The position numbers were made by a program, and so were the translations under genes. The notes beneath the pieces are model-generated. The model had not been told where the DNA came from. It saw only the letters and a list, made by a program, of their open reading frames with translations, and made no database searches. From Deltaproteobacteria bacterium HGW-Deltaproteobacteria-6 (GTDB lineage Bacteria > Desulfobacterota > Syntrophia > Syntrophales > Smithellaceae), in the NCBI GenBank assembly GCA_002840435.1, contig PHAT01000005.1, positions 1 through 36,459 of the forward strand: 36,459 nt of DNA, read 5' to 3'. Of this stretch, positions 7,265 to 30,826 are shown piece after piece (positions within the stretch are counted from its first letter, which is position 1; each line of letters starts with the position of its first letter).

Positions 7265-7300
7265 AAAAAAGCTTATTTTATTGACAACAGGATGTTGTGG
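7265..7300 (+). repeat. Interspersed repeat, degenerate copy D
   Basis: AAGCTTATTTTATTGA is shared exactly with copy B (14203-14374), followed by the core ATTGACAACAGGATG (7280-7294). The outer parts are not clearly alignable. It precedes the first module on the same strand as the other copies. Together with the AT-rich 7180-7260 stretch it fills the gap between the tatA terminator and the AlbA gene. Confidence 0.5.
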
Positions 7301-7405: not shown

Positions 7406-8008
7406 GTGACCTCAGAGCAACTGCGCACAGCTATCGCGCTCGGCAGGGAGCAGCGGAATACTGAATTCAAGGGCCCTGGAGCGCGGAGCGACAAACCGTT
7501 TCTGGCAAAGGTCGTCCGCGCCGTGCTGGCCATGGCAAACCGGTCTGATGGTGGTGTTGTCGTTATTGGTGTGGATGATGACGGGGAATCTCTAACTCCT
7601 ACCGGCCTCACACAGACCCAAGTGGCAACCTGGCGGTATGATGACCTGCAGTCAAGTGTCACGAACTATGCAGACCCAGCAGTTGACATGGACGTGAACG
7701 TCGTAAGTCTGGATGGCCACGAATTTATCGCGATCACCGTCTCGGGGTTCTCCGAGCTTCCGATCCTGTGCAAGAAGGACTATTCGGGCATACTCCGAAA
7801 CGGGGCGCTCTATGTACGCCGCTATGGTAAGAATGAAAGCGTGGAGATTCCTTCTCACATTGAGATGCGGGAAGTCATCGAGCGCGCCGCCGAGCTTGTT
7901 GCGCGTAAGATGGTCAGGACTGCGACTCGCCTTCAGCCGTACCTCGAACCCTCGGCGTCAGGTAGCGCACGTCAGAAATTCGATAGGGAAGTTGAGGATC
8001 TGCTGTGA
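7406..8008 (+). CDS. AlbA_2 (Schlafen-type) putative ATP/nucleic-acid-binding protein
   Basis: The 200-residue protein has an AlbA_2 domain over about residues 8-140: TEFKG near 20, then AMANRSDGGVVVIGVDDDG (about 42-60), then the beta-rich FIAITVSGFSELPIL and LRNGALYVRRYGKNE. The last is the conserved 'g.yyvR.g..t' end of the domain. AlbA_2 proteins are found as regulators and in Schlafen-like and defence-associated proteins. Here the domain stands alone with a C-terminal helical extension. The start is GTG with an AGAGAGGA RBS. It overlaps the next gene by 4 nt (GTGA), so the two are probably co-translated. It is the first gene of the island. The family is moderately sure; the function is unknown. 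Confidence 0.75.
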   Translation: MTSEQLRTAIALGREQRNTEFKGPGARSDKPFLAKVVRAVLAMANRSDGGVVVIGVDDDGESLTPTGLTQTQVATWRYDDLQSSVTNYADPAVDMDVNVVSLDGHEFIAITVSGFSELPILCKKDYSGILRNGALYVRRYGKNESVEIPSHIEMREVIERAAELVARKMVRTATRLQPYLEPSASGSARQKFDREVEDLL

Positions 8009-8685
8009 GCGTCGCCGACATGGTCAAGACTCGTGGCTACTGGGTTGTACGCATTATACCGGAGGAGTATCCCGAAAAGACTCCGTTTACACTGCAGGTG
8101 CTTGAAGCGGCTGTCAAAAACAGCTCCGTCGCCATCCGCGGATGGGATTTTCCGCACATCGATACCCATAAATCGCCAATCCGAGCGCCCAATCACATCG
8201 AACAGCCATTTGATTGGCAACACTACTTGGAACTCTGGCGGGCATACCGAAGTGGCCAGTTTGTGTCACTGTGCGGCCTGTGGAATGACTGGCGAGATAA
8301 GTCCACGTTCTGGCCACCCGACTGTACGTGGAAGAGTGGAACTCTGCTCGGTGTAGAAGACACCGTGTTTCGTGCCGTTGAGATCTATGAATTCGCGGCA
8401 CGCTGGTCAACGGCTCTAGGGCTCACAGGAAGACTTACCATCGATATGAAGCTGCAAGGGCTCACCGACCGAGCCCTCGGCCTAGGGCCGAACCGTGTTC
8501 CATTTATGCATCCCCACGTCTGCTCCGTTCAGGAATGGACATTCTCGGAGTCATACTCCGCAACCGCCCTACTCGCTGAAACGAGGTCTCTCGCAGTGCC
8601 ACCGGTGATCTCCCTATTTGAGCTCTTTGGATGGGATGTCAGCAAGGAGAGCATCCGTGGCATTCAAGCAGACTTCCGGAAGTGA
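8005..8685 (+). CDS. Unknown protein coupled to the AlbA_2 gene
   Basis: This 226-residue protein starts with GTG inside the stop codon of the previous gene. It is rich in Trp and aromatic residues (GYWVVRI, FDWQHYLELWRAYRSGQF, LWNDWRDKSTFWPP), with no signal peptide or transmembrane helix visible. I do not recognise a family. The strict coupling suggests it works with the AlbA_2 protein, perhaps as the effector or sensor of a two-gene system. No terminator is evident before repeat copy A. Confidence 0.7.
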   Translation: MSVADMVKTRGYWVVRIIPEEYPEKTPFTLQVLEAAVKNSSVAIRGWDFPHIDTHKSPIRAPNHIEQPFDWQHYLELWRAYRSGQFVSLCGLWNDWRDKSTFWPPDCTWKSGTLLGVEDTVFRAVEIYEFAARWSTALGLTGRLTIDMKLQGLTDRALGLGPNRVPFMHPHVCSVQEWTFSESYSATALLAETRSLAVPPVISLFELFGWDVSKESIRGIQADFRK

Positions 8686-8781: not shown

Positions 8782-8955
8782 TTGTAAGTGACTTCAACTT
8801 CCGTTCAAATTTCATTTTTTTATCGCACCCGTGCAATTTCAAATACAAATGGAGAATTTAGGTGATCTGAGCGGATTAATGATAACGGGTTGAAACGTGC
8901 ATATGTTTAAGTCCGGTATTTTCAGGATAACGAGGTATTTGTGTCTTCCTGAAAT
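8782..8955 (+). repeat. Interspersed repeat, diverged copy A
   Basis: This copy aligns end to end with copies B and C with no net change in length (about 174 bp). It begins TTGTAAGTG as in C, shares TTTCAAATACAA in the middle and the core AATGATAACGGGTTG (8878-8892), and ends GTCTTCCTGAAAT. It lies between module 1 and the NTPase-glycosyltransferase gene. The remaining 8956-9116 holds a possible promoter. Confidence 0.65.
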
Positions 8956-8975
8956 CGATAACCCTATTGATCTTA

Positions 8976-9005
8976 TTGACATACTGGACTTCAATCGAAA
9001 ATGAT
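8976..9005 (+). promoter_or_regulatory. Possible promoter of the NTPase-glycosyltransferase gene
   Basis: TTGACA (8976-8981) and AATGAT (9000-9005) are separated by 18 nt, about 110 bp before the ATG at 9117. The -35 box is perfect and the -10 box is moderate (4 of 6). Confidence 0.4.
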
Positions 9006-9116: not shown

Positions 9117-12100
9117 ATGTCCAATAATCCTTTCGTTGTTGATCGCATATGGATTCCGAGAGGCGCTAAGATTGAATTCAGCCACGATTTCTTCGAGTCA
9201 GAAGAGGTCGCCGCTGGTGTTACACCACAAACTTACCTCAGAGGTCTCAATCCTGATATTCCGTGCATAGTTCTACTAGGTCCTCCCGGTATTGGCAAGT
9301 CAACAGAATTCGATCGAGCTGTTCAGAATGCCACTTCAATCAATTGTTCTATTGCACAAACACCGCTTCGCGGCATATCAACGTTTGATGACTTGCGCAC
9401 AATTGCCCAGTCCTTATTAGACACAACAAAAGGCCGGACGCTGTGGTTTCTCGACGGGCTTGATGAAAGTCCAGTTTCAATGCCGGTTGCGCAGCAGTGG
9501 CTGTTACAGACATTCACTTGGGCACAAGAACGATCGCCTGGCACCTTGCTGCCACGAATGAGTGTCAGAACGGCAGACTGGTCTTCCCAATTTGAAGATC
9601 AATTGCGTGAGTTGTGGAGCCGGGAAGGCGTCGAAGTCTTCGAACTGACGCCATTCACGGAATCGCAGGTACAGGCTTACGTCACTGCCACGACGCCCAG
9701 CGCGGACAGGTTCTGGGAGGCTGTCCAGGAAAGCGGTGCCACTCCTTTCGCAAGCCGTCCTATCACGCTACGAATGTTGCTGGCCGGCTTCCTACAGCAA
9801 GGTTCCTTAGCGCAAGACAAGATTTCCTTATATCGCAGAGGAATCCTTGCCCTCCTCGATGAATCAAATCTCGCACGACGCAAACTCGGTATTTATGGCG
9901 AGTTGGACGCCGACATGCGATTTGCCCTCTCGTGTCGTATAGCCGCCGCATCCGTGCTCTCGACAAAAACCCTAATTTGGGACGGCCTATATTGCGACCC
10001 GATTCCGGCCAACGCTGTCACGGTTTCTGAACTATCAGGCGGAGTCGAGCAAACACTTGGCGAGAAAGTCAATGCAAGCTCGAAGCACATTCGAGAAACA
10101 CTGAAAACCGCGCTATTTCGGCCGGTCTCTGAGGACACGTTCGACTGGAGCCATAAATCATTCGCCGAATTCCTTGCAGCGCAATACATTCGCGCTGGCA
10201 AACTTACAACCGCCGAACAGCTTGCGCTCATACGCTCTGGCCTCCCGGGCAATGATCGGATCGTTCCACAACTAAGGGAAGTAGCTGCATGGCTATGCGC
10301 CTCCAATCACGACCTTTTCCGTATATTGGTCGAAACTGAACCGGATACACTCCTTTCGAGCGACATTGCCTTAGAATCAGATATGGATCGCTTCGCTCTC
10401 GTTGCGCATTTGATCGAGAGACTCGACAGAGGTGACGCTTACGACAAATCTGAGTGGCGGGACTACTATTCTCGCCTCGACCACCCCAGATTGGCTGAAC
10501 AGATCGGCTCCGTTATCACAGCGCGTTCCGGAAATATCATTTTACGACGAACCGTCATTGACATCGCGGAAGCTTGCCTTAGAAGAGATCTATTACCGCA
10601 ACTGCGTCGGGTCGCGTTTGATGAATCCGATAACGCCCACATTAGAGCTCGAGCCACTCATGCATTAGCAAAAATCTTGAGTGATCAGGAGCGGCACGAG
10701 CTTGTTCCGCTGGCAATGAATCCGCAAAATGATCCTGATGATGAAATCAAAGGCTGGGCGCTTCAAAGCACTTGGCCGAAACATCTTTCAGCACACGAGT
10801 TGTTTGAGGCGCTTACTAAACCCCAAAATGAGTCGTTAATAGGCAGTTACGCATTCTTTCTATATCACCTCGATTTCGGCCAGCTGAACCCAGAGGGCGC
10901 ACTGGCAGCGCTCCAGTGGATAGAAGGCCAGGACCTCAAGAAGAACATATACCACTCGTTTAGGAAGCTTATTCCAAAAGCCCTAAGTGAGGTGTGGCGA
11001 AACAGCGATGATGATAGTGTTTTAGCGCGCTTGGCAGGATTTATATTGAGCAACGAGCACACTCGATCATTACTTCGCCATGAGACCGAACTTAAAAGAT
11101 TTCAAGATGAGTATCTAACAGCAGAGCCAAAGCGTCGTCAAAGACTAGTGAAAGAGGTTTTAGCTCGCGCGCCCCAAAACTGGAGTGGCGCGCGAGTGCT
11201 CACTTTTTTGCCTTGGCAAATGGTTGTTAGGTCGGATCTAACTTGGCTCGTAGACGACTTGCTACAGATAACTGGTGATGAGGATAAGCAAAAACATGTC
11301 ATCGAACTAATCGTCGCGTTAATCGACTGGCAACATTTCAATGAAATTGAATTCGTATGGGATGCTTCCGAGAAGCACCAAGGCCTAAAAGAAGCACTCA
11401 GTGCGATTTCGGCAATCTCTCTTGATTCCGACTACGCGAAATTGCAACAGGAAGATAGTAAGCGAAGCAGGGAACGAGCGAAAGCCAAACCCGAACGCGA
11501 CGCAAAGACAGTCGCCCGAGAATTGCTCAACCAGGTCGAGGGGGGTGACCTTGATGCGTTTTGGCGTTTAAACCTTGTCCTTCTCAAAAATGAGAATGGT
11601 CAGGTCGATGAGTTCACCGGCGTGCTAACCTCTGGAGCTATTTGGCCGACGTTGGAGGCCGGTGAAAAGCAGCGGGTGGTTGCAGCGGCAATCTCTTATC
11701 TCAATTCTTATCCGCTAACGCAAAACTATTTTGCCCCAAACACCCATTATAGACCTGCGGCAGCAGGGTATCGCGCTTTACGCTTACTACTCTCCGAAAA
11801 CATTGACGCCTATAGTGCAATCGCAGCCGACACCTGGGCGAAATGGGCTTTACCGATCATCAGTCTTTCGTCCAACGACAGCAACAGTGAGCGCAAAAAC
11901 CAGCAGCGGATCGCTCAAGATTGCTGCAAGCATGCACCGGCGGCGTTCCTCTCGGCACTCTCGGCTTATTTAAAAAACTCCAGCGATTTTTATCAAGTTA
12001 CCAACTTAATTGAAGACTGGCCGAACACATCGGTTTTCGATATCGTTTGGTCCGCGCTCAAGACGGCCAAAGTCGATAAGAGTATTTTCGAAAGGGTTTT

Positions 12101-14051
12101 ATCGCAGCTTCTGCCAAATTATCTCCCGGCGCTCGAAGCGGCAAAAGCTGCGCTTGAAGGCTTGAGTCCTGACTCGGACGAGTTAGCTATAACCGCCGCC
12201 GCCGAGCTGCTCAGAACGAACCCTCGCGAACATTGGGGTCGGCTGCGCGAAATAGTCTCGGCCCAGCCAGATATTGCCCGTAAGCTTATAACTGCTTTTG
12301 GCTCTGACTGGAGAAGAGATCGAGATGGAAGTGAAGAGGCTCTCCCGACGCCCATGCAGCAAGGCGAAATGTACGTATGGATCGAACACTTATTCACGCG
12401 CACACCGAAGGAGAAAGGTGCGCATTGGGTAACACCCATCGACGAGGTCTTCAATTTTCAGAGTGCTTGCTTGCGTGTGCTTACAGCATCCAGCACGAAT
12501 GAGTCCGTTAAAGCCATAGCCTGGATTACTGAACAACTACCGAGCGTCGGCTGGTTGAAATGGAGCCTTGAAGACACAAAGGAAAATCAGCGGCGACTCG
12601 GGTGGGCGCCGCTGGCTCCTAAGGCCGTTCTGGAACGAATACGACGCGAAACGATTGAGGCGCAACCGAGCAGTGATAAAGAAAAGCTTTTTGAGAAGGC
12701 GGAGGATGTCAGTCCCGAGGGCACGGCGCCGATTTTAAACGTCGTCAGTTCCTTGCCGTCGGTTGTGCCAATGCCTGAGCCAAAGGGACCTAGTCCGCAG
12801 CAACCCGAACCACTGCTCACTTTCCTCGTGGTAAACGATGAATGGTTCTCCGGCCATGGTGGAGTTTCTACGTTCAATCGTCACTTGTGCATCGCTCTCG
12901 CAAAGTTGGGTCACCGAGTCGTTTGCTTTATCCCGGAAGCAAAGGACATCGAAATTGACCAAGCGAAGAAATATGGCGTCGAAATTGTTGCCGCGTTGAA
13001 ATCACCTGGACTGACTGTTCCTCAGCTTCTCGCCATTGGGCCAAATGGAAACTTATCGCCGCCTCCTGATGTCGTCATCGGCCATGATCAAGTAACGGGC
13101 TCGGAGGCACTCGCACTTGCGCGGAGGCGGTTCAATTGTCCTTACTTGCACTTCATCCATTCGTCACCTGAAGAGCTTGAGCCCGTGAAGAGCATGGCTG
13201 GAAGTGTCGATTACCTGAAAGCCAGTAAGAAGAGGGAGCTTCAAAAATCCGTATCGTTATCATCAGATGTGGTACTTGCTGTAGGCCCATGTTTGTACCG
13301 CCACATGAGGACCGCCTTAGTTGGTGGGAATGGCGCAGCAAACGTTATTGAGGTCATACCGGGGCTAAACCCCGATCTTTTGACATTTTCGCGTCCGCAA
13401 GACGACGGATTTCAGTTGCACTGCCTACTTTCAGGACGGCTCGACGAAATAGGGGTTAAAGGAACTGAGCTATTCGTAAAGATTGCTGGCTCATTCCAAA
13501 TGCAATCTACGATTAAGGGCGTTCGTTTCATAATGCGAGGGTTCTCCGCAGAAACTATGAATTCCACTGTCGAGGAGCTACAAAAGCAGTGCGGCGCGAA
13601 GCCTTACAACATCTTCGCTAGAGAATTTACGACGGACGAGAAAGCCCTTCTGGACGAACTTAAATCTGCGACAGCGTTTCTCATGCCTTCAAAAGTTGAA
13701 GGTTTTGGTCTTACAGGTCTCGATGCCATTTCAGCCGGTATACCTATGATAGCGAGCGCAGCCAGTGGCCTGGCGCAATTGCTGGCGAGACATGCAAAAA
13801 ACTTCTCGGGAGACCTTGAACGCATCGCAATGGATGCGGTCTTGGATGTCGAACCGGATGGCGATGATGTGCTTGATAAATGGTTTGATCGACTAAAGAC
13901 AATTCTGACTAACCCAGAAAAAGCGCTTATTGAGGCTGATGATCTTCGTAAGGCCCTCGCACCGAAGGTGTCATGGACCCTCGCGGCACAAACCGTAACC
14001 GCGGCTGCGCGAAATGCATTGAAGGCACCGGGTGGCGTATTAGGCGCGTGA
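9117..14051 (+). CDS. NACHT/STAND-like NTPase fused to a C-terminal GT4-type glycosyltransferase
   Basis: This 1644-residue protein appears to have three parts. The N-terminal NTPase has Walker A GPPGIGKST (55-63), Walker B LWFLDGLDES (109-118) and the NACHT-type FDWSHKSFAEFLAAQYI (342-358). A long alpha-helical, HEAT/TPR-like region (about 360-1200) is the likely sensor or scaffold. A Pro/Glu linker leads to a GT-B glycosyltransferase (about 1232-1640) with HGGVSTFNRHLCIALAKLGHRV, LLSGRLDEIGVKGTELF and PSKVEGFGLTGLDAISAGIP. The last is the GT4 E-x7-E site with Asp at the second position (E1528, D1536). By analogy with bacterial NLR/STAND immunity, recognition of an invader would trigger NTP-driven assembly and activate the effector, here possibly a sugar transfer. 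GGAG precedes the ATG by 9 nt. Domains are seen; the immune role is inferred. Confidence 0.88.
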   Translation: MSNNPFVVDRIWIPRGAKIEFSHDFFESEEVAAGVTPQTYLRGLNPDIPCIVLLGPPGIGKSTEFDRAVQNATSINCSIAQTPLRGISTFDDLRTIAQSLLDTTKGRTLWFLDGLDESPVSMPVAQQWLLQTFTWAQERSPGTLLPRMSVRTADWSSQFEDQLRELWSREGVEVFELTPFTESQVQAYVTATTPSADRFWEAVQESGATPFASRPITLRMLLAGFLQQGSLAQDKISLYRRGILALLDESNLARRKLGIYGELDADMRFALSCRIAAASVLSTKTLIWDGLYCDPIPANAVTVSELSGGVEQTLGEKVNASSKHIRETLKTALFRPVSEDTFDWSHKSFAEFLAAQYIRAGKLTTAEQLALIRSGLPGNDRIVPQLREVAAWLCASNHDLFRILVETEPDTLLSSDIALESDMDRFALVAHLIERLDRGDAYDKSEWRDYYSRLDHPRLAEQIGSVITARSGNIILRRTVIDIAEACLRRDLLPQLRRVAFDESDNAHIRARATHALAKILSDQERHELVPLAMNPQNDPDDEIKGWALQSTWPKHLSAHELFEALTKPQNESLIGSYAFFLYHLDFGQLNPEGALAALQWIEGQDLKKNIYHSFRKLIPKALSEVWRNSDDDSVLARLAGFILSNEHTRSLLRHETELKRFQDEYLTAEPKRRQRLVKEVLARAPQNWSGARVLTFLPWQMVVRSDLTWLVDDLLQITGDEDKQKHVIELIVALIDWQHFNEIEFVWDASEKHQGLKEALSAISAISLDSDYAKLQQEDSKRSRERAKAKPERDAKTVARELLNQVEGGDLDAFWRLNLVLLKNENGQVDEFTGVLTSGAIWPTLEAGEKQRVVAAAISYLNSYPLTQNYFAPNTHYRPAAAGYRALRLLLSENIDAYSAIAADTWAKWALPIISLSSNDSNSERKNQQRIAQDCCKHAPAAFLSALSAYLKNSSDFYQVTNLIEDWPNTSVFDIVWSALKTAKVDKSIFERVLSQLLPNYLPALEAAKAALEGLSPDSDELAITAAAELLRTNPREHWGRLREIVSAQPDIARKLITAFGSDWRRDRDGSEEALPTPMQQGEMYVWIEHLFTRTPKEKGAHWVTPIDEVFNFQSACLRVLTASSTNESVKAIAWITEQLPSVGWLKWSLEDTKENQRRLGWAPLAPKAVLERIRRETIEAQPSSDKEKLFEKAEDVSPEGTAPILNVVSSLPSVVPMPEPKGPSPQQPEPLLTFLVVNDEWFSGHGGVSTFNRHLCIALAKLGHRVVCFIPEAKDIEIDQAKKYGVEIVAALKSPGLTVPQLLAIGPNGNLSPPPDVVIGHDQVTGSEALALARRRFNCPYLHFIHSSPEELEPVKSMAGSVDYLKASKKRELQKSVSLSSDVVLAVGPCLYRHMRTALVGGNGAANVIEVIPGLNPDLLTFSRPQDDGFQLHCLLSGRLDEIGVKGTELFVKIAGSFQMQSTIKGVRFIMRGFSAETMNSTVEELQKQCGAKPYNIFAREFTTDEKALLDELKSATAFLMPSKVEGFGLTGLDAISAGIPMIASAASGLAQLLARHAKNFSGDLERIAMDAVLDVEPDGDDVLDKWFDRLKTILTNPEKALIEADDLRKALAPKVSWTLAAQTVTAAARNALKAPGGVLGA

Positions 14052-14202
14052 CCGCTTTTGGTGAAACCAGCCATTAGCGATCATGCCCTTAAGGCACACA
14101 CGCCAACCAACGGCGGCCCTAAGAACGGCGTTGGCGCGCATCAAGCAAGACGTCCCTTTTAACCTTAATCCGCAGAATTGATGAATGAATCCGGCTGAGT
14201 TG

Positions 14203-14374
14203 TTGTAGGTGGATCAGCGTTCTGACAAATTTCTTTTCTTAATTGCGCCAGCACAACTTCAAATACAAGTATTAACCTTCGTTAATAAGCTTATTTTATT
14301 GATAACGGGATGTAAGGCGCAGATTTTTTAAAGTGCGTCTCTGGAAAGGCGCTGGCCTGATGTCTTCCTGAAGT
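14203..14374 (+). repeat. Interspersed repeat, copy B (about 172 bp)
   Basis: About 93% identical to copy C; the last 57 bases are identical. It contains the core ATTGATAACGGGATG (14298-14312) and a stem GGCGCA/TGCGTC that keeps pairing through a G-T wobble where copy C has GACGCA/TGCGTC. It lies just after the NTPase-glycosyltransferase gene. The preceding 14052-14202 shows no gene. Confidence 0.85.
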
Positions 14375-14431
14375 AGTTATTATTGAGTCTTTCCCGGATA
14401 TTCAACAGTTCAAATGGAAAGAGGTAAGGTG

Positions 14432-14453
14432 ACCGGAAAAAAATAAGTCCGGT
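14432..14453 (+). terminator. Weak hairpin with T-rich end
   Basis: ACCGGA/TCCGGT with a 10-nt A-rich loop is followed by TTT. It could be a weak terminator for plus-strand transcription out of repeat B. No gene was seen between 14375 and 14610. Confidence 0.3.
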
Positions 14454-14610
14454 TTTATCCGGCCTTTTGAATGTCCTGTATTGGGCGTTACGTTCACTAA
14501 CAAATGTTTAATGGCGTGCAGTTGTCGGGATTGATGATTACGGATGGGAAGAGAGCACTTTCAAATCAATCGGCCTACATAAAAGCCACGAAGAACGATT
14601 GATTGCAGAG

Positions 14611-15105
14611 CTAGGCCCACTTGGAAGATAACCCATGGATCGTCGCAGAGAGAAAACGCAACAACTCAAGCAAGAGTTGAATATCAAAGGACTTAGCTTT
14701 CCCCTCAAAGATGTACCTCCAATTCTGAAAGTCGCCATCATATGCCTGCAACGCCTCGATCAATGTCTTTGGTTTGTTCCGATATTGTTCTTGGGCGAAA
14801 CAGTTCTCCAGTCCATTTTTAATGTTTGCGTCTAGGGCGCAAAAAAGCTTTGAAGGCATATGGCCGGTCTCCAGCGGCACCTCTCGAACACGACCAAAAG
14901 CGGTAAGACCGGGCATGATTTCGGTAGGTTCCTCACAACTAAACTTAATGTTTAAAGACTTGAGGAATATTTCAAGGGCAAACGTGGCATTTACAATGGT
15001 TGGGACCGACATCCGTGAGTCTGAGAATTTATTCAAGGCTTGAGCTGCTTCATAAAAAGAGTCCGCAATGTTGAGAACGCCAAGATTAGGTATTTGCCGC
15101 ATCAT
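14611..15105 (-). CDS. HEPN-like hypothetical protein
   Basis: This is a 164-residue all-helical protein. The segment VPTIVNATFALEIFLKSLNIKF (about residues 33-54) resembles the first helices of HEPN-type proteins, where an ALExxLK pattern is common. A clear catalytic RxxxxH is not evident, so it may be a non-catalytic HEPN or only superficially similar. The ATG at 15105 is chosen because AAGGA lies 9 nt upstream; a TTG at 15111 is the longer alternative. HEPN proteins are common toxins and RNases in defence loci, but function here is inferred weakly. No antitoxin partner is visible next to it. Confidence 0.6.
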   Translation of the reverse strand: MMRQIPNLGVLNIADSFYEAAQALNKFSDSRMSVPTIVNATFALEIFLKSLNIKFSCEEPTEIMPGLTAFGRVREVPLETGHMPSKLFCALDANIKNGLENCFAQEQYRNKPKTLIEALQAYDGDFQNWRYIFEGKAKSFDIQLLLELLRFLSATIHGLSSKWA

Positions 15106-15135
15106 ATGCAATTGTCCTTTGTGAGTGGGCTGCTG

Positions 15136-15167
15136 AAGGAAGGCCGGAGCGGCCTTCCTTTTTTTTA
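15136..15167 (+). terminator. Strong rho-independent-type hairpin
   Basis: A 10-bp stem AAGGAAGGCC/GGCCTTCCTT with a 5-nt loop is followed by T8 on the plus strand. No plus-strand gene ends nearby, so it either ends an unannotated transcript or serves as a leader structure for the minus-strand HEPN-like gene, whose start is 31 bp away. Confidence 0.6.
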
Positions 15168-15399
15168 TTTTCGTATTTCTTGAATATTTTCTTTCACGGG
15201 AATCCTCTCAAATAACATGGGGATGTCTTTAATTCTTCTTTAAAGTTCTGTCTCTTGACTTTGAGGCGTGCGATGTAGTCCGACATTAAATGCGACGTAT
15301 ACCTTATACCCTTTCTTCAATTGTTTAATTTTCCTCTAGATCAAGTGTTAGTTTTTCTAGAAAATTCTTAAAAGGATTCCTGCTATGTTCCTTTTGTTC

Positions 15400-16419
15400 T
15401 TACTGTTTTTTTAGGCGTTCCTTTTCTTCTTGCTGTCTTTTATAACGTTCCCAGTTTTCATCTGCTATTTTTTTACTTTGAATTTCTTTTTTTTGTTTTT
15501 CTATTCGTTGAATTTCATCTTGCTGTTTTCTCAATTCATCTTGCTGTTTCCTCATAAGTTCTTTTTTTTCTTGCTCTTTTCTTATCCGTTCTTTTTCTTC
15601 TTGTTGTCTTTGATGTTCACTTTTTGCTTGTTCCCTTATTACTTCCTCGATTTTTTCTTTTGAGCAGACTTTTTTTAGTAAAATCATCTCCGCTGACCTA
15701 TCTTTTACGTTCGTAGGTACAATATTCGTATCAATCGTGTTTTCATATGGATTATATTCGGCTTTATAGAAAATATTTCTTACTATTTTATTAGTTTTCT
15801 TAGAACAGTTTATTTCATTCAATAATAACCATTTTACTTTGCCAAAGTTAATTTCCTGTTTACTCCAAACTTGTATAACATTGGAATCGAGCATCTTTAT
15901 ATGTTTATTATCGTAAGAGTATTTACCACTATCATCCCTTTCATAAGCAATCCATTCTCGTCCAAGATTCGCTTCTTCTTTGAGTAATCTTTCTTCTTCT
16001 TTAGCTATTCTTTCTTTTTCTTTAACTATTCTTTCTTCTTCTTTTTCAATTACCTTTTTCCGTATTTCTTCATCTCGTTTTTCTTCCTGACATAGTTTCA
16101 CTACGATTTCTTTGCGAATATAGTAATCATTTGTAACCCATTCACCCCATTTATTCTTTATTTGATTAGCCTCACGATCAATATAGAAACGTTTGTTTGG
16201 ATTGCTATCACATGAATACGTTACTCTTAGCATCACCGGTCTGTTAGTAATACAAACACCAGATGAACATGTAATGTACGGCGTACCTATTCTTATAATA
16301 TCATTGCTCTGATTTTGGAAACTAAGACCATTTAAGGGAAAGACGAAACTTATGGTCATTACAAATATAAAAAAAAATTTAATAGACTGGTTATTTCTTT
16401 TCATTCTCATTGTATTCAT
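15400..16419 (-). CDS. Exported coiled-coil protein with a surface-adhesin-E-like domain
   Basis: The 339-residue protein has an N-terminal signal (basic start, then FFFIFVMTISFVFPLNGLSF). Next comes a Cys-containing beta region (YITCSSGVCITNRP). A highly charged Glu/Lys/Arg coiled coil (about 113-150) is followed by the segment EWIAYERDDSGKYSYD to EINCSKK, which resembles surface-adhesin-E-type domains. A second Gln/Lys/Glu coiled coil ends the protein. It is likely periplasmic or surface-associated. Base composition is very AT-rich compared with module 2. Its ATG follows the stop of an upstream remnant by 1 nt (TGA-A-ATG), indicating former operon structure. Function is unknown. 15168-15399 shows no gene. 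Confidence 0.65.
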   Translation of the reverse strand: MNTMRMKRNNQSIKFFFIFVMTISFVFPLNGLSFQNQSNDIIRIGTPYITCSSGVCITNRPVMLRVTYSCDSNPNKRFYIDREANQIKNKWGEWVTNDYYIRKEIVVKLCQEEKRDEEIRKKVIEKEEERIVKEKERIAKEEERLLKEEANLGREWIAYERDDSGKYSYDNKHIKMLDSNVIQVWSKQEINFGKVKWLLLNEINCSKKTNKIVRNIFYKAEYNPYENTIDTNIVPTNVKDRSAEMILLKKVCSKEKIEEVIREQAKSEHQRQQEEKERIRKEQEKKELMRKQQDELRKQQDEIQRIEKQKKEIQSKKIADENWERYKRQQEEKERLKKQ

Positions 16420-16420
16420 T

Positions 16421-16612
16421 TCATTTTCCCTTTCGGAGCCAGGGCAACGGCGTTATGAATAGAGCTACTTTGTGGACTCGGATTTTCACTGTAATTACCA
16501 AAGTTTTTCCGGATAGTCCAGCAAGATCATGGTAAGAAATAGCATTGGGAAAATGTATGGTAACTTCTAAGGAACCATTTTTAAAGATTTCTTCCCGTAA
16601 TTCTTGGCGGAT
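16421..16612 (-). pseudogene. C-terminal remnant of an unknown gene next to repeat C
   Basis: An open frame of about 63 residues has coding character (REEIFKNGSLEVTIHFPNA, then LSGKTLVITVKIRVHK) but no start codon. Its TGA is 1 nt before the ATG of the coiled-coil gene. Reading upstream, the frame meets a stop at 16613-16615, only about 20 bp from the left edge of repeat C. The most natural reading is a gene whose 5' part was lost at the repeat boundary. Confidence 0.45.
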
Positions 16613-16634
16613 TTACATGCTTGCCACCGAACAT

Positions 16635-16807
16635 TTGTAAGTGGATCAGAGTTCTGACGAATTTCTTTTTTCTTATTGCGCCTGCACAACTTCAAATACA
16701 AGTATTCACCTTCGTTAATAAGATTATTTTATTGATAACTGGTTGTAAGACGCAGATTTTTTAAAGTGCGTCTCTGGAAAGGCGCTGGCCTGATGTCTTC
16801 CTGAAGT
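16635..16807 (+). repeat. Interspersed repeat, copy C (about 173 bp)
   Basis: This is the partner of copy B, about 93% identical with a perfect 57-base 3' end. It contains the core ATTGATAACTGGTTG (16731-16745) and a perfect 7-bp stem AGACGCA/TGCGTCT (16748-16754 with 16767-16773). It lies 421 bp upstream of the second giant NTPase. The region 16808-17227 is AT-rich with no gene seen. Confidence 0.85.
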
Positions 16808-17227
16808 CAATAAGGGAGGTCCGACTTCCTTCTTAGTTTATTCACAAATTGACAATCTTGACGAAAATTCTTGAAATAAACACAATTCAAGACCGCCAAG
16901 CACACCGGTACGAAAACTCACATTTTGCAGCCAATTTTCCATTGACATATGAGATCGTCCGGTCCTATATGTCTTAAACAAGACATGCATTTTCAAATGT
17001 AGCATAGGTGCTGCCTAGAAAATGCTTTATTTTATGTATCACTAGAGCAAAATATACCTAGGTACTTTCAATGGACAGACATCATTGAACACAATGCTTT
17101 GGTTCAATGATTGAAAAATCATATTAAAATATAAAATGGCGAAGACTTTAATGAAATAACAGAAGATAATCATATAGAACCTCTACTTATAAACGCAACG
17201 CTGGTTGAAAAAAGGAAGAAGGTGCAT

Positions 17228-20200
17228 ATGGAACCTGTCAAGTCGCATGGCCTGTCTCTAATTTCCCCACATGAGGCAAACAACGCTCAAAATACAGAGC
17301 TTATGGATCTGACTAAGATTGCTTCTACTTTGCCACAAATTGAGAATCCAAGCATCCGGCGAGAAAACATTATCTCTACGCTTGCAGAAATGCTTAGCGC
17401 TGATACTGAGGTGATTATTGTTGATGGTCCCGATGGCATTGGTAAGACAACGTTACTTGCCCAGTTTGCTCGTGAATATCCTGATCACACTTTTAGCATT
17501 TTCATACGTTCGTGCAGTCGTTATGCTTACGACTCGGGAATGCTTATGCGAGACCTTTGCGACCAGATTGGCTGGGTTCTCAAGAAGGAGAATTATCGTG
17601 CTGAGAAGGAAGTTGATCCTACCCAGTTATTAAATACACGTCTCTATGATCTACAGCGGCACGCGAACTATGAACGCTCAACGTATTACTTTCTAATTGA
17701 CGGATTGGAAGAGATTCCTCAAGAGGATTGCCATGAGCGCGACATGATCCTTAAACTTTTGCCGTTCGGAATCCCGCGTTTCCGTTTCATCCTATCTGGT
17801 CCACAGGAGTCTCTGAATAATCTTACAAACAAAATCCGCAGAATTAGTCCTTTCAGATTAGTTGGGTTCAATTTTGAGGAAACCCGTCAATTCTTGAACG
17901 ATTTTGTAACAGAACGTTCAACATTAGAAGTGATTCACAAGATCTGTAAAATGGTGCCAGGAAATCTAGCGAGTGTCCGTCGTTTGCTGAAGGCAGGTAC
18001 AGCCATAGAGCAATTGCTGGATGAATTTCCTGATCATCCGCCAGATTGGTTTGAGGTTGAATGGCGGGTGGTAGAGAACGAAGATTATTTGCTACGCCAG
18101 GCACTTGCCATCCTTGCTTTTGATCGACGTTATCATTCAATAGCCTCACTTTCTCATCTCTGTAAAACAGAACCTGCGGAGCTGGATAAAAAATTAACCC
18201 GCTGTACTTTTGTTGAACGGAGAAACAATGGACAGCAGGTCGAGTTCGTTCATGATGTGTTTAAGCGTTTCGCTGCAAACCGTTTGTCCTCACTGAGACG
18301 AACTATCTTCGATATAGTTATCTCGGACTTATTGAACACGCCGGAAAGTGATGATGCCTTGACACACTTGCCCGGTTTTCTACAACAGGCAGGACGCTAT
18401 GACGAGTTGCTGAATTATCTGTCTCCGGAGCATATTGGCAATTTAATTGATTGCGGGGATTCTTGGATACCACTTCATCAGAAAGCCGAGCTTGGTGTAG
18501 AGACTGCCTTTAGCCTGGACCGCGACGGCGACTTACTAAGGTTTGGCCTTCAGCGAGCTACGATTGCGAGCATCGAGAGTTCTGAGTCGTGGCGTTCTGA
18601 GATCGAAGCATATGTTGCACTTGATGATTTTTCAGCAGCATATGCGTTAGTACAGCGAATGGTTACGAAAGAGGATCGTCTTCAATTACTATCAGTAATT
18701 GCCAGAGCAAAGAAAATCAAGAAATTGCCGATTGAGATAGAGTTGAATGACCAGATAGAGCAACTCTACCGCATGATTGACTGCGGAAGTCTAGGTGATC
18801 GCGGTATCGAAATTGCTTCAGACTTGCTTTATACACACCCAGAATTGGCTGTTGAACTTGTTCAAAAGTGCACTAATAAGGGGAATACTGAGGACAATAT
18901 TGATCTTGCATTGGGTATGCTTTCTTTCAGGGCGTTTGTGGAAAAAGGTAGTGGTATGTCTGGAATGGCATCAACTCAAGATGCCCTCCGCGCGAAGGTG
19001 AAAGATCCAAAGATTCAAAAGTTTATTAATACGATATCAATCTTATTTGGTGAATACAGTGCTGAAGGCGTAATAGCCGATGTCGATAAGTGGGAGAAGG
19101 CCGCCGACCGTATTTTTGTATTAAGGACATGGGCGGTCACCAACGTAAAACGACAAGATTCTGTAACAGTTATAGAATATGCGCTGAACACCATACTTCA
19201 AACAACAACGTACACTGCTAATGCCAAAGTCTACCAAGAACTGGCTTTGCCATTAATATATATTTCTGACCTTGAACGAGTGAAAGCGATCATTGGCAGG
19301 CTCGACGGATTGAAAGGCCTCATTCAATCGGCCGGTCCAACGGTGGAATATGTTAAACTTCAGGGTACGTTGGCAGAGGCCGAGGCACGTTATGACAAAC
19401 ATACTGCCATTGATCGTCTACTAGATTTATTCGTCTACGTAGATGCTCTGACAGAGCCTAGCACAAAACTAGTTGCATTTGCTGTTTTATCCCGAACTTT
19501 AAAGATAATCGACGAGCACAAACTGCTCGAGGTGGAAAGCGGTATACATGCCGCTGTGCTTGACGGGTTAAAGGCCATTGTTGAAGAAATTTTAACGAAG
19601 ACAGCAGATCATTATAAAGCTATCCGTCCAGCAATTGAGGCGTTGACACGTAGCGATACAAAAATTGCCTTGGAAGTTATTGACAGATTAAACACATTGC
19701 CACGAAGGGAGGCCGCGCTTGTCAGATTTATGAAAGCGATGGCAACTGAGTCTCCTTCTAACGCAAACTTTGCTGCCCTAAAGGAAGCTTATGGCAAGAT
19801 CAAGACTTCTCTCCTACGGACAAAAGCAACCCGTGTAACAATACGCGGATTGCTAAGTCGAAAGAATGAATTGGACTCATTTATTCATGAGATCATCTCA
19901 CTGCATAAATGGGTTACGGATATTCCGGATGCCGAGAAGAAGTGCCAGACAATATGCATGTTTTTTGATATTCTCTTCTATAATAAGAATGCTACTGATT
20001 CATTACGGGATACACTCCTAAAAGAACTTAGTGATACTTGGGACAAGATTGACGAGGGTTGGTCTAAGGTAGAATCTGGTTTCAAGATTGTCTCTATAAT
20101 GGCGAAGTTTTCTCAAGAAATAAGCCGTAATTTTCTGGCCAATACTATGAAGGCGCGAAATGATATTATTTTGGATTCAAATAACATGGCAATTAGTTAC

Positions 20201-22228
20201 ATTAGCTGCGTCCAGCTTACTATTCGCTGTTTTGGAGGCTTGATTAAGCGTAAAGTTTATATTGACGAAGACTTTGCAGATCTTCAGGTAATCATAGATA
20301 ACATACCATCTCTCGCTATTCGCGCGGTTGTTTGGAGTGACATTGCGTTAAAGTTTTTCGTCGCGCATGACATGGAACATGGGCAAAAAATCGTATCAGA
20401 GCGGGTTCGCCCCATCTTTGATTTTGACGTGCTTGAAAATGAAGAGATTCGCTGGCGGACTGTCACCACTGTTGCAGTGGCACTATACAACGCACACCAT
20501 AGTTCAGCAATACAATTAATTGACAACCTACCCATGCCTTACCGGGACGCTGCTTATGGAGATATCTGTTCATTTCTTATTGAGAACAAATTACCTTCCG
20601 AGCGTTATGATTCAGCAAGTAAACCTATATTTAAGGTCAATTATTTAACCTTTATAGATGTTTATGAAGTTCTGCAACACATGGAGGCGGACGATGTAAT
20701 ATACTGGTACTTAAAGTCTTTAGTTGATAACATCCAAAAACGTTTGCGGAGTGAATTCAGTAAAACTCAGATTTCCGAGATTATGCAAAAACTTCGAAAT
20801 CTCGTCGACGTGAAGTTTCAAAATCCCGACTACATTAAACACGAGGGTTATAAAATTCTGGCCGAGGCCCAAATCGCACGATTGGAACGCGACAAGAATC
20901 CATGGGAGGCTTTATCGTCGAGGGCGAGATTAATTCCCAATATAGCGGACAGTGCTCTTGTCCTGATGGGCATCGGTGAGGCAATGTCAGCGAAAGAACT
21001 GATTAAAGCCATTGCTTTGTTTACGGAGGCAAAAGCTTTAATCTCCCAAATATCTACTTTTGAGGATCGCTGTAATCACTATGAAACACTAGCCAAATTA
21101 TGTGCGGACATTGATAAGCCTCTAAGCAAAGATTGCCTAAGGGAAGCATGGAACGAGACATTGCCAATGGATGCAACAGAACTTCCAGAAACTCGACGCC
21201 GTATTATTGATTTTGCTCACAGAATAGACCCAGAATTCGCAAGTAGTTTAGCATCAGAAACCGATGATGATCCTGGACGGGAGTTTGCACGGGAACAGAC
21301 CAAGCAGCGCATTGAACTTCTTAAACGGCGTGAGCAGGTTGTTTCAGGTGAACACGATGCCTTGAAACCAGAAGAAAATAGTGCACAGCATATAGAATTT
21401 GCAAAGATGATGTTGGCTGGGCTTAACTCAAATCGGATCAATCCTTTTCATATTGACTTTACAAGACAGTATATTAAACAAGCTAGTCAAATGGAACTGT
21501 CCGGCGCTTTTGAGGTGCTCTCTTGGGTAATTGAAAATGCTGTCCGCCGATATTCAGATACTGATCAGGCAAGTACTTTGATACGACCTCTCTACGAAGC
21601 TTCACGCCTGTCGGCTGAACTTGCCTTCAGGATCGCGGCTCGTGTAAGGTCAAACATTGATTCAGGAATTTCAGCAGCGCGTCATACAGAAGCATCGGGT
21701 AATAATCTGATCCACTATGGAGAACGGGAAAAGGCATTGGCTATTCTCGAAGCTTTTGCATCCAAAGCAACTAATTTTATCAAGATCACCGATCCTTACT
21801 TCGGCCTCGAAGAATTGGAGTTGGTTAAATTGATTCGCGGAGTAAATTTAGCTGTTCCAATCTTCATCCTTACAAGCCGGAAACATCAACAGGATACCCG
21901 TATCCAGCAAGCATGGGATGATACATATCAATCGTATTGGCGTATGACTGTTTCCGATTCCGACCCCGGTGAGGTGACTATTATTATGATTGGCAAAGTT
22001 CCGACAGGTCAACACCCAATTCATGATCGATGGTGGTTGTCTGAAAATGGCGGACTCCGAATAGGTACTTCCGTTAAATCCCTAGGCTTCAAGCGCATAT
22101 CCGAGGTTTCTCCCATTTCAGGGACTGATTCGGCACTGCTTGTTACTGAGGTAAATCAATACATCAACGGTAGCGGAAACCTTAAACATAACGGTGACCT
22201 TTTGAGACTCTCATCCTTCAGGCTATGA
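17228..22228 (+). CDS. STAND-like NTPase with a C-terminal PLD-like domain
   Basis: This is a 1666-residue protein. The NTPase has Walker A GPDGIGKTT (67-75) and Walker B YYFLIDGLEE (153-162), with a winged-helix-like segment to about 380 (VEFVHDVFKRFAANRL). A very long alpha-helical repeat region follows (about 390-1500). The C-terminus has ITDPYFGLEELELV (about 1520), IFILTSR, HDRWW (1599-1603) and GLRIGTSVKSLG. The 'DPYF ... HDR ... G-S-x-x-x-x-G' order is that of PLD-like phosphodiesterase domains with a non-standard HKD motif. A STAND sensor carrying a C-terminal nuclease-like or lipase-like effector is the likely reading. The ATG at 17228 follows AGAAGG; a GTG at 17222 is in frame. Defence role inferred. 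Confidence 0.85.
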   Translation: MEPVKSHGLSLISPHEANNAQNTELMDLTKIASTLPQIENPSIRRENIISTLAEMLSADTEVIIVDGPDGIGKTTLLAQFAREYPDHTFSIFIRSCSRYAYDSGMLMRDLCDQIGWVLKKENYRAEKEVDPTQLLNTRLYDLQRHANYERSTYYFLIDGLEEIPQEDCHERDMILKLLPFGIPRFRFILSGPQESLNNLTNKIRRISPFRLVGFNFEETRQFLNDFVTERSTLEVIHKICKMVPGNLASVRRLLKAGTAIEQLLDEFPDHPPDWFEVEWRVVENEDYLLRQALAILAFDRRYHSIASLSHLCKTEPAELDKKLTRCTFVERRNNGQQVEFVHDVFKRFAANRLSSLRRTIFDIVISDLLNTPESDDALTHLPGFLQQAGRYDELLNYLSPEHIGNLIDCGDSWIPLHQKAELGVETAFSLDRDGDLLRFGLQRATIASIESSESWRSEIEAYVALDDFSAAYALVQRMVTKEDRLQLLSVIARAKKIKKLPIEIELNDQIEQLYRMIDCGSLGDRGIEIASDLLYTHPELAVELVQKCTNKGNTEDNIDLALGMLSFRAFVEKGSGMSGMASTQDALRAKVKDPKIQKFINTISILFGEYSAEGVIADVDKWEKAADRIFVLRTWAVTNVKRQDSVTVIEYALNTILQTTTYTANAKVYQELALPLIYISDLERVKAIIGRLDGLKGLIQSAGPTVEYVKLQGTLAEAEARYDKHTAIDRLLDLFVYVDALTEPSTKLVAFAVLSRTLKIIDEHKLLEVESGIHAAVLDGLKAIVEEILTKTADHYKAIRPAIEALTRSDTKIALEVIDRLNTLPRREAALVRFMKAMATESPSNANFAALKEAYGKIKTSLLRTKATRVTIRGLLSRKNELDSFIHEIISLHKWVTDIPDAEKKCQTICMFFDILFYNKNATDSLRDTLLKELSDTWDKIDEGWSKVESGFKIVSIMAKFSQEISRNFLANTMKARNDIILDSNNMAISYISCVQLTIRCFGGLIKRKVYIDEDFADLQVIIDNIPSLAIRAVVWSDIALKFFVAHDMEHGQKIVSERVRPIFDFDVLENEEIRWRTVTTVAVALYNAHHSSAIQLIDNLPMPYRDAAYGDICSFLIENKLPSERYDSASKPIFKVNYLTFIDVYEVLQHMEADDVIYWYLKSLVDNIQKRLRSEFSKTQISEIMQKLRNLVDVKFQNPDYIKHEGYKILAEAQIARLERDKNPWEALSSRARLIPNIADSALVLMGIGEAMSAKELIKAIALFTEAKALISQISTFEDRCNHYETLAKLCADIDKPLSKDCLREAWNETLPMDATELPETRRRIIDFAHRIDPEFASSLASETDDDPGREFAREQTKQRIELLKRREQVVSGEHDALKPEENSAQHIEFAKMMLAGLNSNRINPFHIDFTRQYIKQASQMELSGAFEVLSWVIENAVRRYSDTDQASTLIRPLYEASRLSAELAFRIAARVRSNIDSGISAARHTEASGNNLIHYGEREKALAILEAFASKATNFIKITDPYFGLEELELVKLIRGVNLAVPIFILTSRKHQQDTRIQQAWDDTYQSYWRMTVSDSDPGEVTIIMIGKVPTGQHPIHDRWWLSENGGLRIGTSVKSLGFKRISEVSPISGTDSALLVTEVNQYINGSGNLKHNGDLLRLSSFRL

Positions 22229-22669
22229 TTGATAAATTTGGCTCAAATAAGATGGATACTCAATTTGTAACGTCTTGACTTTTCAATGTCGTTTGTTAGG
22301 TAGGTGAATGATGTAAATAAGACCGATACGGAAAAAAACATCGATGATGACTTTTTCCGTAATGTTCTTCCTGAAAGAGAGAATACTATTTTCTCAAATC
22401 ATAATCATCAACTTTTATAAATGCTAACCATCAAACAGTGGTAGGTGGACACGATAGCCAGTGCAGGTTATTTTCTTAAGTAGTACCGGTTGAACTCTGC
22501 GACAAAAAAACATCAACCTCGCTTGTTCACTTCAATAAATAATGGATAATCTCTCAGGACAATCAAAGGCGTTTACTCATAGGTGAATGCGGCAATTTTG
22601 CTACAAGGAGCAAAGACTCAATTTGGACTTGATACATATTTCCGGGTAAGGCCAGTTGGATTATGCTAT
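22229..22669. other. Gene-free spacer after the second NTPase
   Basis: No convincing gene was seen. An inverted repeat ACGGAAAAA/TTTTTCCGT (22328-22360) lies 100 bp after the NTPase stop and could be a weak terminator, though no T-run follows it. A repeat copy was looked for here; only the short ATTGATAA at 22226-22235 and TTCTTCCTGAAA near 22365 recall it. Confidence 0.4.
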
Positions 22670-22882
22670 ATGATTAATATGAATAAAGACGATCTTAATT
22701 ATGAAAGGCTGTTACAGAGAGCCATCGATGTTTTTGGTGACGAAGAAAAAGCAAAGCAATGGTTTTCTTCTCCCCAAAAAGCACTTGGCGGAAAAACGCC
22801 CCTTGAATATTCAGAAAGTGATGTTGGAGCGCAGGAGGTCGAAGATCTTCTAGGCCGTATAGAATGGGGAGTATATTCATGA
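22670..22882 (+). CDS. Short MbcA/ParS/Xre-type antitoxin (toxin-binding domain only)
   Basis: About 70 residues match the C-terminal toxin-binding domain (DUF2384) of MbcA/ParS/Xre antitoxins: RAIDVFGDEEKAKQWFSSPQKALGGKTPLEY, then DVGAQEVEDLLGRIEWGVYS. The usual N-terminal DNA-binding part is missing. The start is uncertain: ATGs at 22670, 22679 and 22583 are all possible and none has a strong RBS. These antitoxins neutralise RES-domain NAD-degrading toxins, but no RES gene is adjacent. It may be a free-standing short antitoxin or the leftover of a degraded pair. Confidence 0.75.
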   Translation: MINMNKDDLNYERLLQRAIDVFGDEEKAKQWFSSPQKALGGKTPLEYSESDVGAQEVEDLLGRIEWGVYS

Positions 22883-22962
22883 TCATTTTCGGCGCGCCGA
22901 AATCGGGGAGTGTTGCTTATGAACCGGTGGATGATTTCCACCAGTTCCCCTTTGAAAGTTAA
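22879..22962 (+). CDS. Possible 27-residue ORF overlapping the antitoxin stop
   Basis: An ATG overlaps the previous stop (ATGA, 22879-22882) and opens a short frame beginning MIIFGAPKSGSVAYEP and ending at 22962. The overlap is what would be expected of a coupled partner gene, so this may be the start of a toxin gene cut short. Equally it may be chance. No family is recognisable. Confidence 0.25.
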   Translation: MIIFGAPKSGSVAYEPVDDFHQFPFES

Positions 22963-23008
22963 ACATCCTGCCGCTTTTACAACCGTGTTTGCCGGCACAG
23001 GATAATTT

Positions 23009-23478
23009 TCAGACTGCACCTGCGCGTTTCTCAATGACGGCCATTATCTTTTCAATGATTCCGAAGCTTCCGTGCGCTTTTTTGAAATCGTCCATCAGGA
23101 CTTGCGCGGCCGGAATGATGTCGCCGGACATTTCCTTCAATGTTTTTAAAACAAGACTTGATTTGATAGCGACGGCTTCACCCAGTTTCTCCCAGTGTTT
23201 CTGCCGTATCCAGGACGGCCTGTTCTCGCCGCCTATCCTCATTGCCGACTTCTCAGCCAAATCCGGATAGACCTGTGTGCAGATCAGATCGTAAAAGGGC
23301 GCGAGGCGCGGGCCTCGGTCAGTAAATATCATGGCCAGATTCTTGGCGTGTGCATCGGCGTTGCCAATCAGGAAGTTGAAAATCGCCCATTGCAACAGGG
23401 CCATACGGTCGGCGGCGGGGCGTATGCGATGGCTTCAAGCAATAGTTCATCTTGTGAAACCTTTCCTTTTTTCCCCAT
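23009..23478 (-). pseudogene. hipA: Broken HipA-family kinase remnant
   Basis: Residues read from 23404 to 23009 match the C-terminal lobe of HipA Ser/Thr kinases: FNFLIGNADAHAKNLAMIF (the catalytic/metal-binding N-x-D-x-H-x-K-N segment) and LAPFYDLICT. HipA is about 440 residues; here about 130 remain and the N-terminal kinase lobe is missing. Upstream, an ATG at 23478 with an AAGGAG RBS (23485-23490) opens a different frame (MGKKGKVSQDELLLEAIA) that runs into the HipA part out of frame. This indicates an internal deletion with frameshift. A non-functional toxin is the likely result. Confidence 0.75.
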
Positions 23479-24277: not shown

Positions 24278-24619
24278 TTAAATATGCGGATAAAGTCCCC
24301 GAAGGACAAAGAATAATTGTCGCAGGTCATCCTCTGATATACCTTTTACAATTTTCGTCATTCGGGCTTCAATATCTTTTCGATTTGTAGATTCATGTTC
24401 AAAACGGAACAACTCATAAAGTTCAACATCCAGTGCTTCAGCAATTTTTTCCAGTGTTTCAAAAGAAGGATTTTGCAGACCGCGTTCAATTTCACCCACA
24501 AATTTATAACTGATGTCTGCTTTTGAACCTAACTTTTCCTGAGTCAAGCTTTTCGAAATTCTTATCTCGCGAATCCTCCGGCCAAGAAGTGATCTTTTAT
24601 TATTTCGTTTATTTTCCAT
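24278..24619 (-). CDS. XRE-family transcriptional regulator
   Basis: The 113-residue protein has an N-terminal XRE/Cro HTH (about residues 11-68: LGRRIREIRISKSLTQEKLGSKADISYKFVGEIERG, then PSFETLEKIAEALDVE). A short C-terminal helical tail (ISEDDLRQLFFVLRGLY) follows, probably for dimerisation. This SinR-like layout is typical of small regulators of mobile elements and toxin-antitoxin loci. A perfect inverted repeat 44 bp upstream of its start is the likely operator. It is divergent from the gene at 24837 and may control both. Confidence 0.88.
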   Translation of the reverse strand: MENKRNNKRSLLGRRIREIRISKSLTQEKLGSKADISYKFVGEIERGLQNPSFETLEKIAEALDVELYELFRFEHESTNRKDIEARMTKIVKGISEDDLRQLFFVLRGLYPHI

Positions 24620-25923: not shown

Positions 25924-25924
25924 T

Positions 25925-30786: not shown

Positions 30787-30826
30787 TGTCACCCCCTTGT
30801 GTTATTTTAAAAAGGGCACAAAAAAA

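Follow-up and report, generated by a model that had tools for sequence, protein, structure and literature searches.

Why does a short DNA sequence recur, nearly unchanged and in one orientation, between the gene modules of a bacterial genomic island? The window considered here, the whole 36,459-nt stretch that was analysed (contig PHAT01000005.1, positions 1 to 36,459 of the forward strand, from Deltaproteobacteria bacterium HGW-Deltaproteobacteria-6, order Syntrophales), contains two close copies of such a repeat, B and C. An earlier sequence-only reading had singled them out, proposing that a hairpin and an invariant 3′ block were under selection, either as a single-stranded recombination substrate or as RNA. 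Our own reading, to which we give roughly two chances in three, is that B, C, and a diverged third copy, A, are junctions within a mobile gene-cassette system, similar to the attC sites of integrons yet not itself an integron. The observations behind it are a family of repeats, their position 3′ of genes, their shared orientation, break points of shared DNA inside copies and mostly at their boxes, and one module shared across bacterial families. The exchange pattern is observed; from it we infer, as most likely, a recombination reaction and an enzyme to perform it.

The copies in the window, with the conserved boxes near their ends, are:

8782-9004, + strand: diverged third copy (copy A), boxes 8838-8848 and 8945-8953
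14203-14374, tail to about 14420, + strand: copy B, boxes TTCAAATACAA at 14258-14268 and CTTCCTGAA at 14364-14372
16635-16807, + strand: copy C, boxes 16691-16701 and 16797-16805
7266-7295, + strand: 30-base partial match to the repeat centre, near the island's left end (uncertain)

The earlier description of B and C as about 93% identical, with the last 57 bases unchanged, holds (14318-14374 is the same as 16751-16807). They start 2432 positions apart and are 93% identical, or 92% across a 148-base ungapped portion; with B as query, its own 4.09-Mb genome returns C at E = 1.2e-68, so the likeness is not due to chance. Copy A is found as 8782-8955 at E = 2e-11, and as 8836-9004 by the full family model. 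The partial match reached E = 1.7e-4 in the genome search, yet E = 0.45 with a three-copy model. From box to box the window copies span 115-116 bp (115 bp in B, whose tail carries TTCAAATGG). The outer box bases differ by one paired change, ATTTCA/TGAAAT in copy A vs. ACTTCA/TGAAGT in B and C; predicted folds have the ends paired in B and C, and unpaired in A. The identity between B and C breaks off directly after CTTCCTGAAGT (TGAAGT), the same point as in another pair of loci discussed below (L291/L297). We read this, from the alignment, as the point where the genes now lying between the two copies (module 3, below) were joined.

Neither B nor C is peculiar to this genome. Among 155 genomes from the window's order, a plain DNA search finds homologues in just 8, and a sequence-only model built from seven copies finds the family in 74, often many times over. 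Copy numbers are lower bounds: at least 23 at maximum in the order-wide model search, and at least 35 in one genome (G154) in a model search with two other genomes. (Here and below, matches itemised from the repeat-model, integron integrase, and recombinase searches of genomes are among the matches listed; the repeat model was run on 155 genomes and the recombinase searches on 154, which is the total for the association tests.) Copy C has no match in plasmid and phage records at E 0.01. A DNA search of 395 genomes from the phylum at E 1e-4 returned its own genome only, the sensitive model having been run on the order only.

In this family, the left part of a site includes (G)ACTTCAAATACAA; then come a centre reading TTGA.TAACGGGTTGAAA, a variable stretch, and GTCTTCCTGAA(A/G)T on the right, often with a tail ending in TTCAAATGGTAATCA that by eye resembles the site's left part. 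The boxes occupy positions m11-21 (left) and m118-126 (right) of the model. Gapped, indel-bearing, or duplicate copies were excluded from the structural counts, leaving 65 for end pairing, 122 for RNAalifold, and 148 for a search for recombinase cores. The end hexamers, ACTTCA and TGAA(A/G)T, are 71% complementary in register (65 copies, wobbles counted), vs. 25-38% when slid against one another. Such complementarity fits an attC-like single-stranded substrate and a transposable element with terminal repeats alike, and so decides between neither.

Layout and break points were studied in 134 fetched loci, picked for having copies (232 copies in 1.42 Mb). Where neighbouring copies lie 0.3-6 kb from each other, their orientation agrees in 89 of 96 pairs; a hand count among the matches listed in the genome searches gave 18 of 21. 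Crude open reading frame (ORF) calling placed a gene no more than 700 bp upstream of 83 of 94 copies, on the copy's own strand in 67 of the 83, and a gene downstream of 77 (same strand in 63 of 77). Several downstream genes have, by eye, an apparent promoter-like sequence of their own, a difference from integrons. The arrangement found is a co-oriented array with a site per gene, though some intervals contain two or more genes. The genes between copies include WD40-caspase, CHAT, caspase, SIR2, restriction, and helicase genes, plus metabolic or transport genes.

A dispersed repeat of the MITE (miniature inverted-repeat transposable element) or BOX type is one alternative: an element of about 115 bp that ends in short inverted repeats (ACTTCA/TGAAGT) and has inserted 3′ of genes, with gene swaps arising by homologous recombination between copies. 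It would account readily for the high copy number within genomes, the inverted end boxes, and the modular halves. It would not predict that neighbouring copies agree in orientation (89/96) or follow the gene strand (67/83), and the break points, to which we now turn, bear on it in both directions.

When the 134 loci were compared all against all, 75 shared segments passed a cut-off of at least 250 bp and at least 75% identity. Leaving aside ends that coincide with the end of a locus, 36 of 133 segment ends fall at a copy in one of the two loci or in both; a position drawn at random is at a copy 2.9% of the time, and thus at a copy in either of two loci about 6% of the time. In 17 of the 36 the end lies in a copy on both sides, and 10 of these 17 are within a box or no more than 12 positions beyond it (six at m13-33, four at m119-136). 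Alignments stop suddenly inside TTCAAATACAA or a few bases from it in four pairs of loci (L190/L251, L254/L268, L249/L285, L176/L302), and do the same at CTTCCTGAA in two (L291/L297, L292/L295); that of L318/L319 continues some ten bases further than CTTCCTGAA. Two others start at such positions, L015/L183 at (TT)CAAATACAA and L186/L230 at CTTCCTGAA; L180/L242 starts between the boxes, at the TTGA.TAAC motif. Sharp break points at boxes, where the site beyond differs, are something that insertion of a MITE or BOX element alone does not give.

The L015/L183 module is 4,030 bp long and 90% identical between G034, which belongs to the window's genus, and G154, from another family. It encodes a SIR2_2-domain gene and a 946-aa partner, and on the G034 contig genes for TniQ, TniB, and an rve/Mu-type transposase are found about 15 kb away. 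In no case are the two flanks of a copy both shared with some other locus of the 134, whether or not a copy is present there; within this set, therefore, shared DNA that reaches a copy ends there. Pairs with shared flanks and an empty site, as insertion might leave, were likewise absent (0 among 134 loci), a weak test of a MITE or BOX element since the loci were selected for having copies.

If these are recombination sites, is the enzyme an integron integrase? The family could in principle consist of ordinary attC sites, or of attC clusters without an integrase belonging to the order's chromosomal integrons. The array layout, co-oriented genes, and inverted end boxes are all suggestive of this, and the integron integrase IntI is present over cut-off in 60 of 154 genomes. 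The repeat occurs in 29 of these 60, an odds ratio of 1.0 and so no association; no significant copy was found at 30 IntI loci, with flanks of only 1.5 kb; and three repeat-rich genomes (G154, G151, G130) have no integron integrase over cut-off. Integron attC core boxes read RYYYAAC (R″) and GTTRRRY (R′). The boxes described here do not, and exchange breaks at both of them. We regard attC sites proper as very improbable.

A better candidate is a 279-aa tyrosine recombinase (YR279) that recurs in array loci. It is 78-90% identical in five genomes from four families (G063, G076, G082, G130, G154), the last of which has a second form at 55%. Its best model is XerA_Arch (119 bits), and it also matches solved XerC-like and XerA proteins; it is under the cut-off of every NCBIfam model it matches, including the integron-integrase model (63 vs. 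a cut-off of 265 bits). A search of the 154 genomes matches 22 at E 1e-40, two of them at 43% identity. At 53% identity or more, fragments included, it is found in 20 genomes, 18 of which have the repeat, vs. 56 of the 134 others (Fisher p = 5e-5, an optimistic value because the genomes are related); with all 22 matching genomes the figure is 18 of 22 (p = 9e-4). At E 0.01, 19 of 30 YR279 loci contain the repeat whole or in half, and in some the left half of the site precedes the gene and the right half follows it, as an autonomous MITE-like element might be arranged. In many of the loci listed among L329-L358, the YR279 gene is also bracketed (by eye) by an inverted pair, with CCCCAAAGACCTC preceding it and GAGGTCTTTGGGG following.

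The cassette reading can be put as follows. A site would comprise about 115 bp, bounded by the left box TTCAAATACAA and, in inverted form, the right box CTTCCTGAA, and its flanks are conserved. Cutting at one or the other box by a site-specific recombinase, of which YR279 (XerA/XerC-like, and encoded in some arrays) is the likeliest, would let a gene plus its flanking part-sites enter or leave an array. A GInt-like island such as that in the window (described below), whose defence-type cargo is split by junctions, could then ferry cassettes between cells. That circles are excised, which strand is used, and which enzyme acts are things we infer.

A number of results weigh against this reading. 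Most shared-segment ends (97 of 133) are away from any copy, and 19 of the 36 that are not have a copy in one locus only. The seven two-sided ends off the boxes fall at m47, m72, about m95, m93/m110, m104, and m161, with one discordant pair; this scatter (7/17) is what homologous exchange between MITE or BOX copies would give, and the one-sided ends also count for that alternative. Covariation between the end boxes is weak (matched by 25 of 1000 shuffles), and no convincing inverted recombinase core around a short spacer was found in 148 copies; one candidate, at m31-56 with a 6-nt spacer, was rejected, its best axes standing only about 2 standard deviations above the mean with unconvincing covariation. 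None of the window's modules was found in the other 133 loci (75% over 250 bp), neither excised circles nor empty arrays turned up, and the genes of module 3 run opposite to the sites, contrary to the usual layout. As to the enzyme, besides the relatedness that flatters the Fisher test, 5 of the 20 YR279 genomes (G116, G121, G133, G150, G152) qualify by a fragment only, and 56 of 74 repeat-bearing genomes have no YR279 match at 53% identity or more. The window's own genome has no match either; its copies may thus be passengers, or some other enzyme may serve them. On balance, the co-orientation and the sharp breaks at boxes lead us to think a MITE or BOX element unlikely, and to retain the cassette reading.

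What then of the hairpin? Its arms are:

14316-14321 and 14334-14339, + strand: stem in copy B, GGCGCA / TGCGTC, not conserved in the family
16748-16754 and 16767-16773, + strand: stem in copy C, AGACGCA / TGCGTCT

Both stems, and the G-T wobble that an A-to-G change introduces, are present in B and C as the sequence-only reading described them; a single wobble between two close copies says little as compensation. The check it proposed, covariation over further copies, was run on 46 members (a list of 130 copies, filtered, plus copy C and one copy from G077), and the stem shows none: 51% of cells pair, vs. 50% in shuffles, and its covariation score is equalled by 51 of 500 shuffles (46-141 of 500 across five scores). 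An alternative register of the stem was no improvement in the same members, and RNAalifold returned no consensus structure for 122. The stem falls in the variable stretch of the family alignment. A six-copy alignment does give a weak consensus stem, with a covariation term of almost nil, and an impression by eye, that the stem is kept in distant copies, found no backing in these counts. Of four 77-nt folds (B and C, each strand), that of C on the − strand alone stands out (z −3.4, vs. −0.6 to −0.9 for the rest). Selection on the hairpin, as proposed, therefore finds no support in the family; the invariant 3′ block is better explained by the break-point motif CTTCCTGAAGT at its end than by a conserved fold.

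A structured small RNA or 3′-untranslated-region element would sit naturally 3′ of genes on the same strand, and the B/C hairpin does fold locally. The family has no covariation, consensus fold, or Rfam family to match (Rfam on 13900-17300 gave a single chance-level match, outside any copy), and gene swaps break inside its copies, which makes an RNA element a very remote prospect. In the choice originally offered between recombination and RNA, then, the link to recombination has good support, the copies marking sharp break points between swapped genes, and the small RNA has none.

The genes that the sites separate in the window, together with the gin-like operon and ssb, are:

7406-8685, + strand: module 1, an SLFN_AlbA_2 protein (7406-8008) and a 226-aa protein (8005-8685)
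9117-14051, + strand: module 2, a 1644-aa protein with a C-terminal GT4-conflict domain and weak NACHT and HEAT matches
14611-16419, − strand: module 3, between B and C, ORFs 14611-15111 and 15400-16419
17222-22228, + strand: module 4, a 1668-aa NACHT protein
25486-30792, − strand: ginABCD-like operon (29503-30792, 27957-29579, 25925-28009, 25486-25989)
31082-31480, − strand: ssb, whose 3′ end the island adjoins

The three repeat copies sit between cargo modules. The cargo (SLFN, GT4-conflict, and NACHT proteins) would suit a role in defence, to judge by its domains; PADLOC gave one weak match only for six cargo proteins. The island itself is GInt-like by its gene content and its position at the 3′ end of ssb. 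The order and size of its operon agree with three tyrosine recombinase-like genes plus a small fourth, of which Pfam labels as integrases just the first and the second (the latter below cut-off). The plasmid GinC proteins closest to its own, at 54% identity, come from Pseudomonas aeruginosa loci arranged as ssb-ginABCD. A scan of genome contigs kept 80 relatives, and at 50 of these 80 loci an ssb match lies upstream of ginA. Of 29 loci from relatives within the window's family, 21 have tatA adjoining ssb, about 50-400 bp away, and in the window the two are 24 kb apart, as insertion at a fixed site would leave them. GInts are flanked by direct imperfect repeats of 10-17 nt; a search for an attR copy of the ssb end gave no clear one. 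A GinC scan of viral contigs gave no pattern match.

This setting suggested an explanation that was favoured at first, that the repeats are the 3′ end of the GInt itself, copied into its interior as islands inserted one after another at ssb. Tandem GInts do exist, as in Tepidimonas (below), and the partial match near the island's left end would be in keeping. However, the family occurs in 74 genomes of the order, and the window's GinC, used as a query, matches only G000 among 154; moreover, 86 other gin-bearing loci (1.64 Mb) contain no match to the family at E 0.1. The order-wide spread and this absence largely refute it, and we consider it hardly tenable.

Some further observations on gin loci and on the window may be recorded. 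Self-repeats exist within some of 74 other gin loci. Tepidimonas fonticaldi NZ_VJOO01000006.1 (L070/L071) has two tandem GInts, 21.7 kb apart from start to start, sharing a 14,994-bp exact repeat that could alternatively be an assembly fault; the second begins within CCGTTCTAG of the ssb end. On a Citrobacter plasmid (L028), a small gene occurs twice, at 27255-27446 and 35476-35667 (71% over 192 bp), and judging from other plasmids the second copy looks like backbone lying past the end of the island, as though the island had taken up neighbouring DNA. A Janthinobacterium GInt locus (L097) has direct repeats of about 100 bp at 10606, 11440, and 12562, spaced 0.8-1.1 kb; they are outside this family and are possibly another cassette-like array. 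In the window, an XRE regulator (24278-24619) and a 149-aa protein (24837-25286) form a pair that recurs on G034:C390 at 22005-23003, 89% and 71% identical; an ORF with an Xre/MbcA-type antitoxin domain and a HipA_C fragment (22583-23404) are perhaps a decayed toxin-antitoxin locus; and a 21-bp coding repeat at 15972-16051, inside ORF 15400-16419, encodes a glutamate/lysine-rich stretch.

How do these sites compare with known systems? Integrons are the closest parallel, in their mostly co-oriented genes, sites of about 100 bp with inverted end boxes, exchange between genomes, and partly defence-like cargo. In a normal attC cassette the entire site is on the 3′ side of the gene. The present family differs in its consensus boxes, ACTTCAAATACAA and CTTCCTGAA(A/G)T, in breaking at both of them, and in its lack of a link to IntI, the correlated recombinase being XerA-like. 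BOX and MITE-type repeats are short, modular, and dispersed, with terminal inverted repeats, and this family shares all of these properties; it differs in its strong co-orientation and in gene swaps that break in its copies. Among XerA/XerC-like recombinases, YR279 is nearest XerA_Arch, though under the model cut-offs, and its role as the enzyme is putative. With GInts, the window's carrier island shares a four-gene operon, a position at the ssb 3′ end, and cargo that fits defence; GInts, however, are whole islands, and the repeat family is separate from them and also occurs without gin genes. Those who described GInts had no empirical evidence of how they gather cargo (Bardaji et al., 2017, in passages of PMC5385486). 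No cassette system of the kind proposed here was recognised in titles and the openings of abstracts, or in passages of PMC5385486 and PMC10214605.

It is tempting, if somewhat less than an even bet, to go further and see here a second, independently evolved cassette system: an order-wide gene reservoir with two-box sites, served by a small XerA-like recombinase or another enzyme instead of IntI, holding caspase-like, CHAT, SIR2-like, and restriction cargo, and moving between species in GInt and Tn7/Tn5053-like islands. To our knowledge, only one well-known system, the integron, keeps a stock of individual genes and reshuffles them at sites devoted to that purpose. If a counterpart using different sites and a different enzyme were real, the principle would have arisen more than once. 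Such a counterpart would provide a new recombinase and site to test, shed light on the way defence genes come together and are handed on in an order where IntI does not track the arrays, and bear on how a GInt acquires its cargo.

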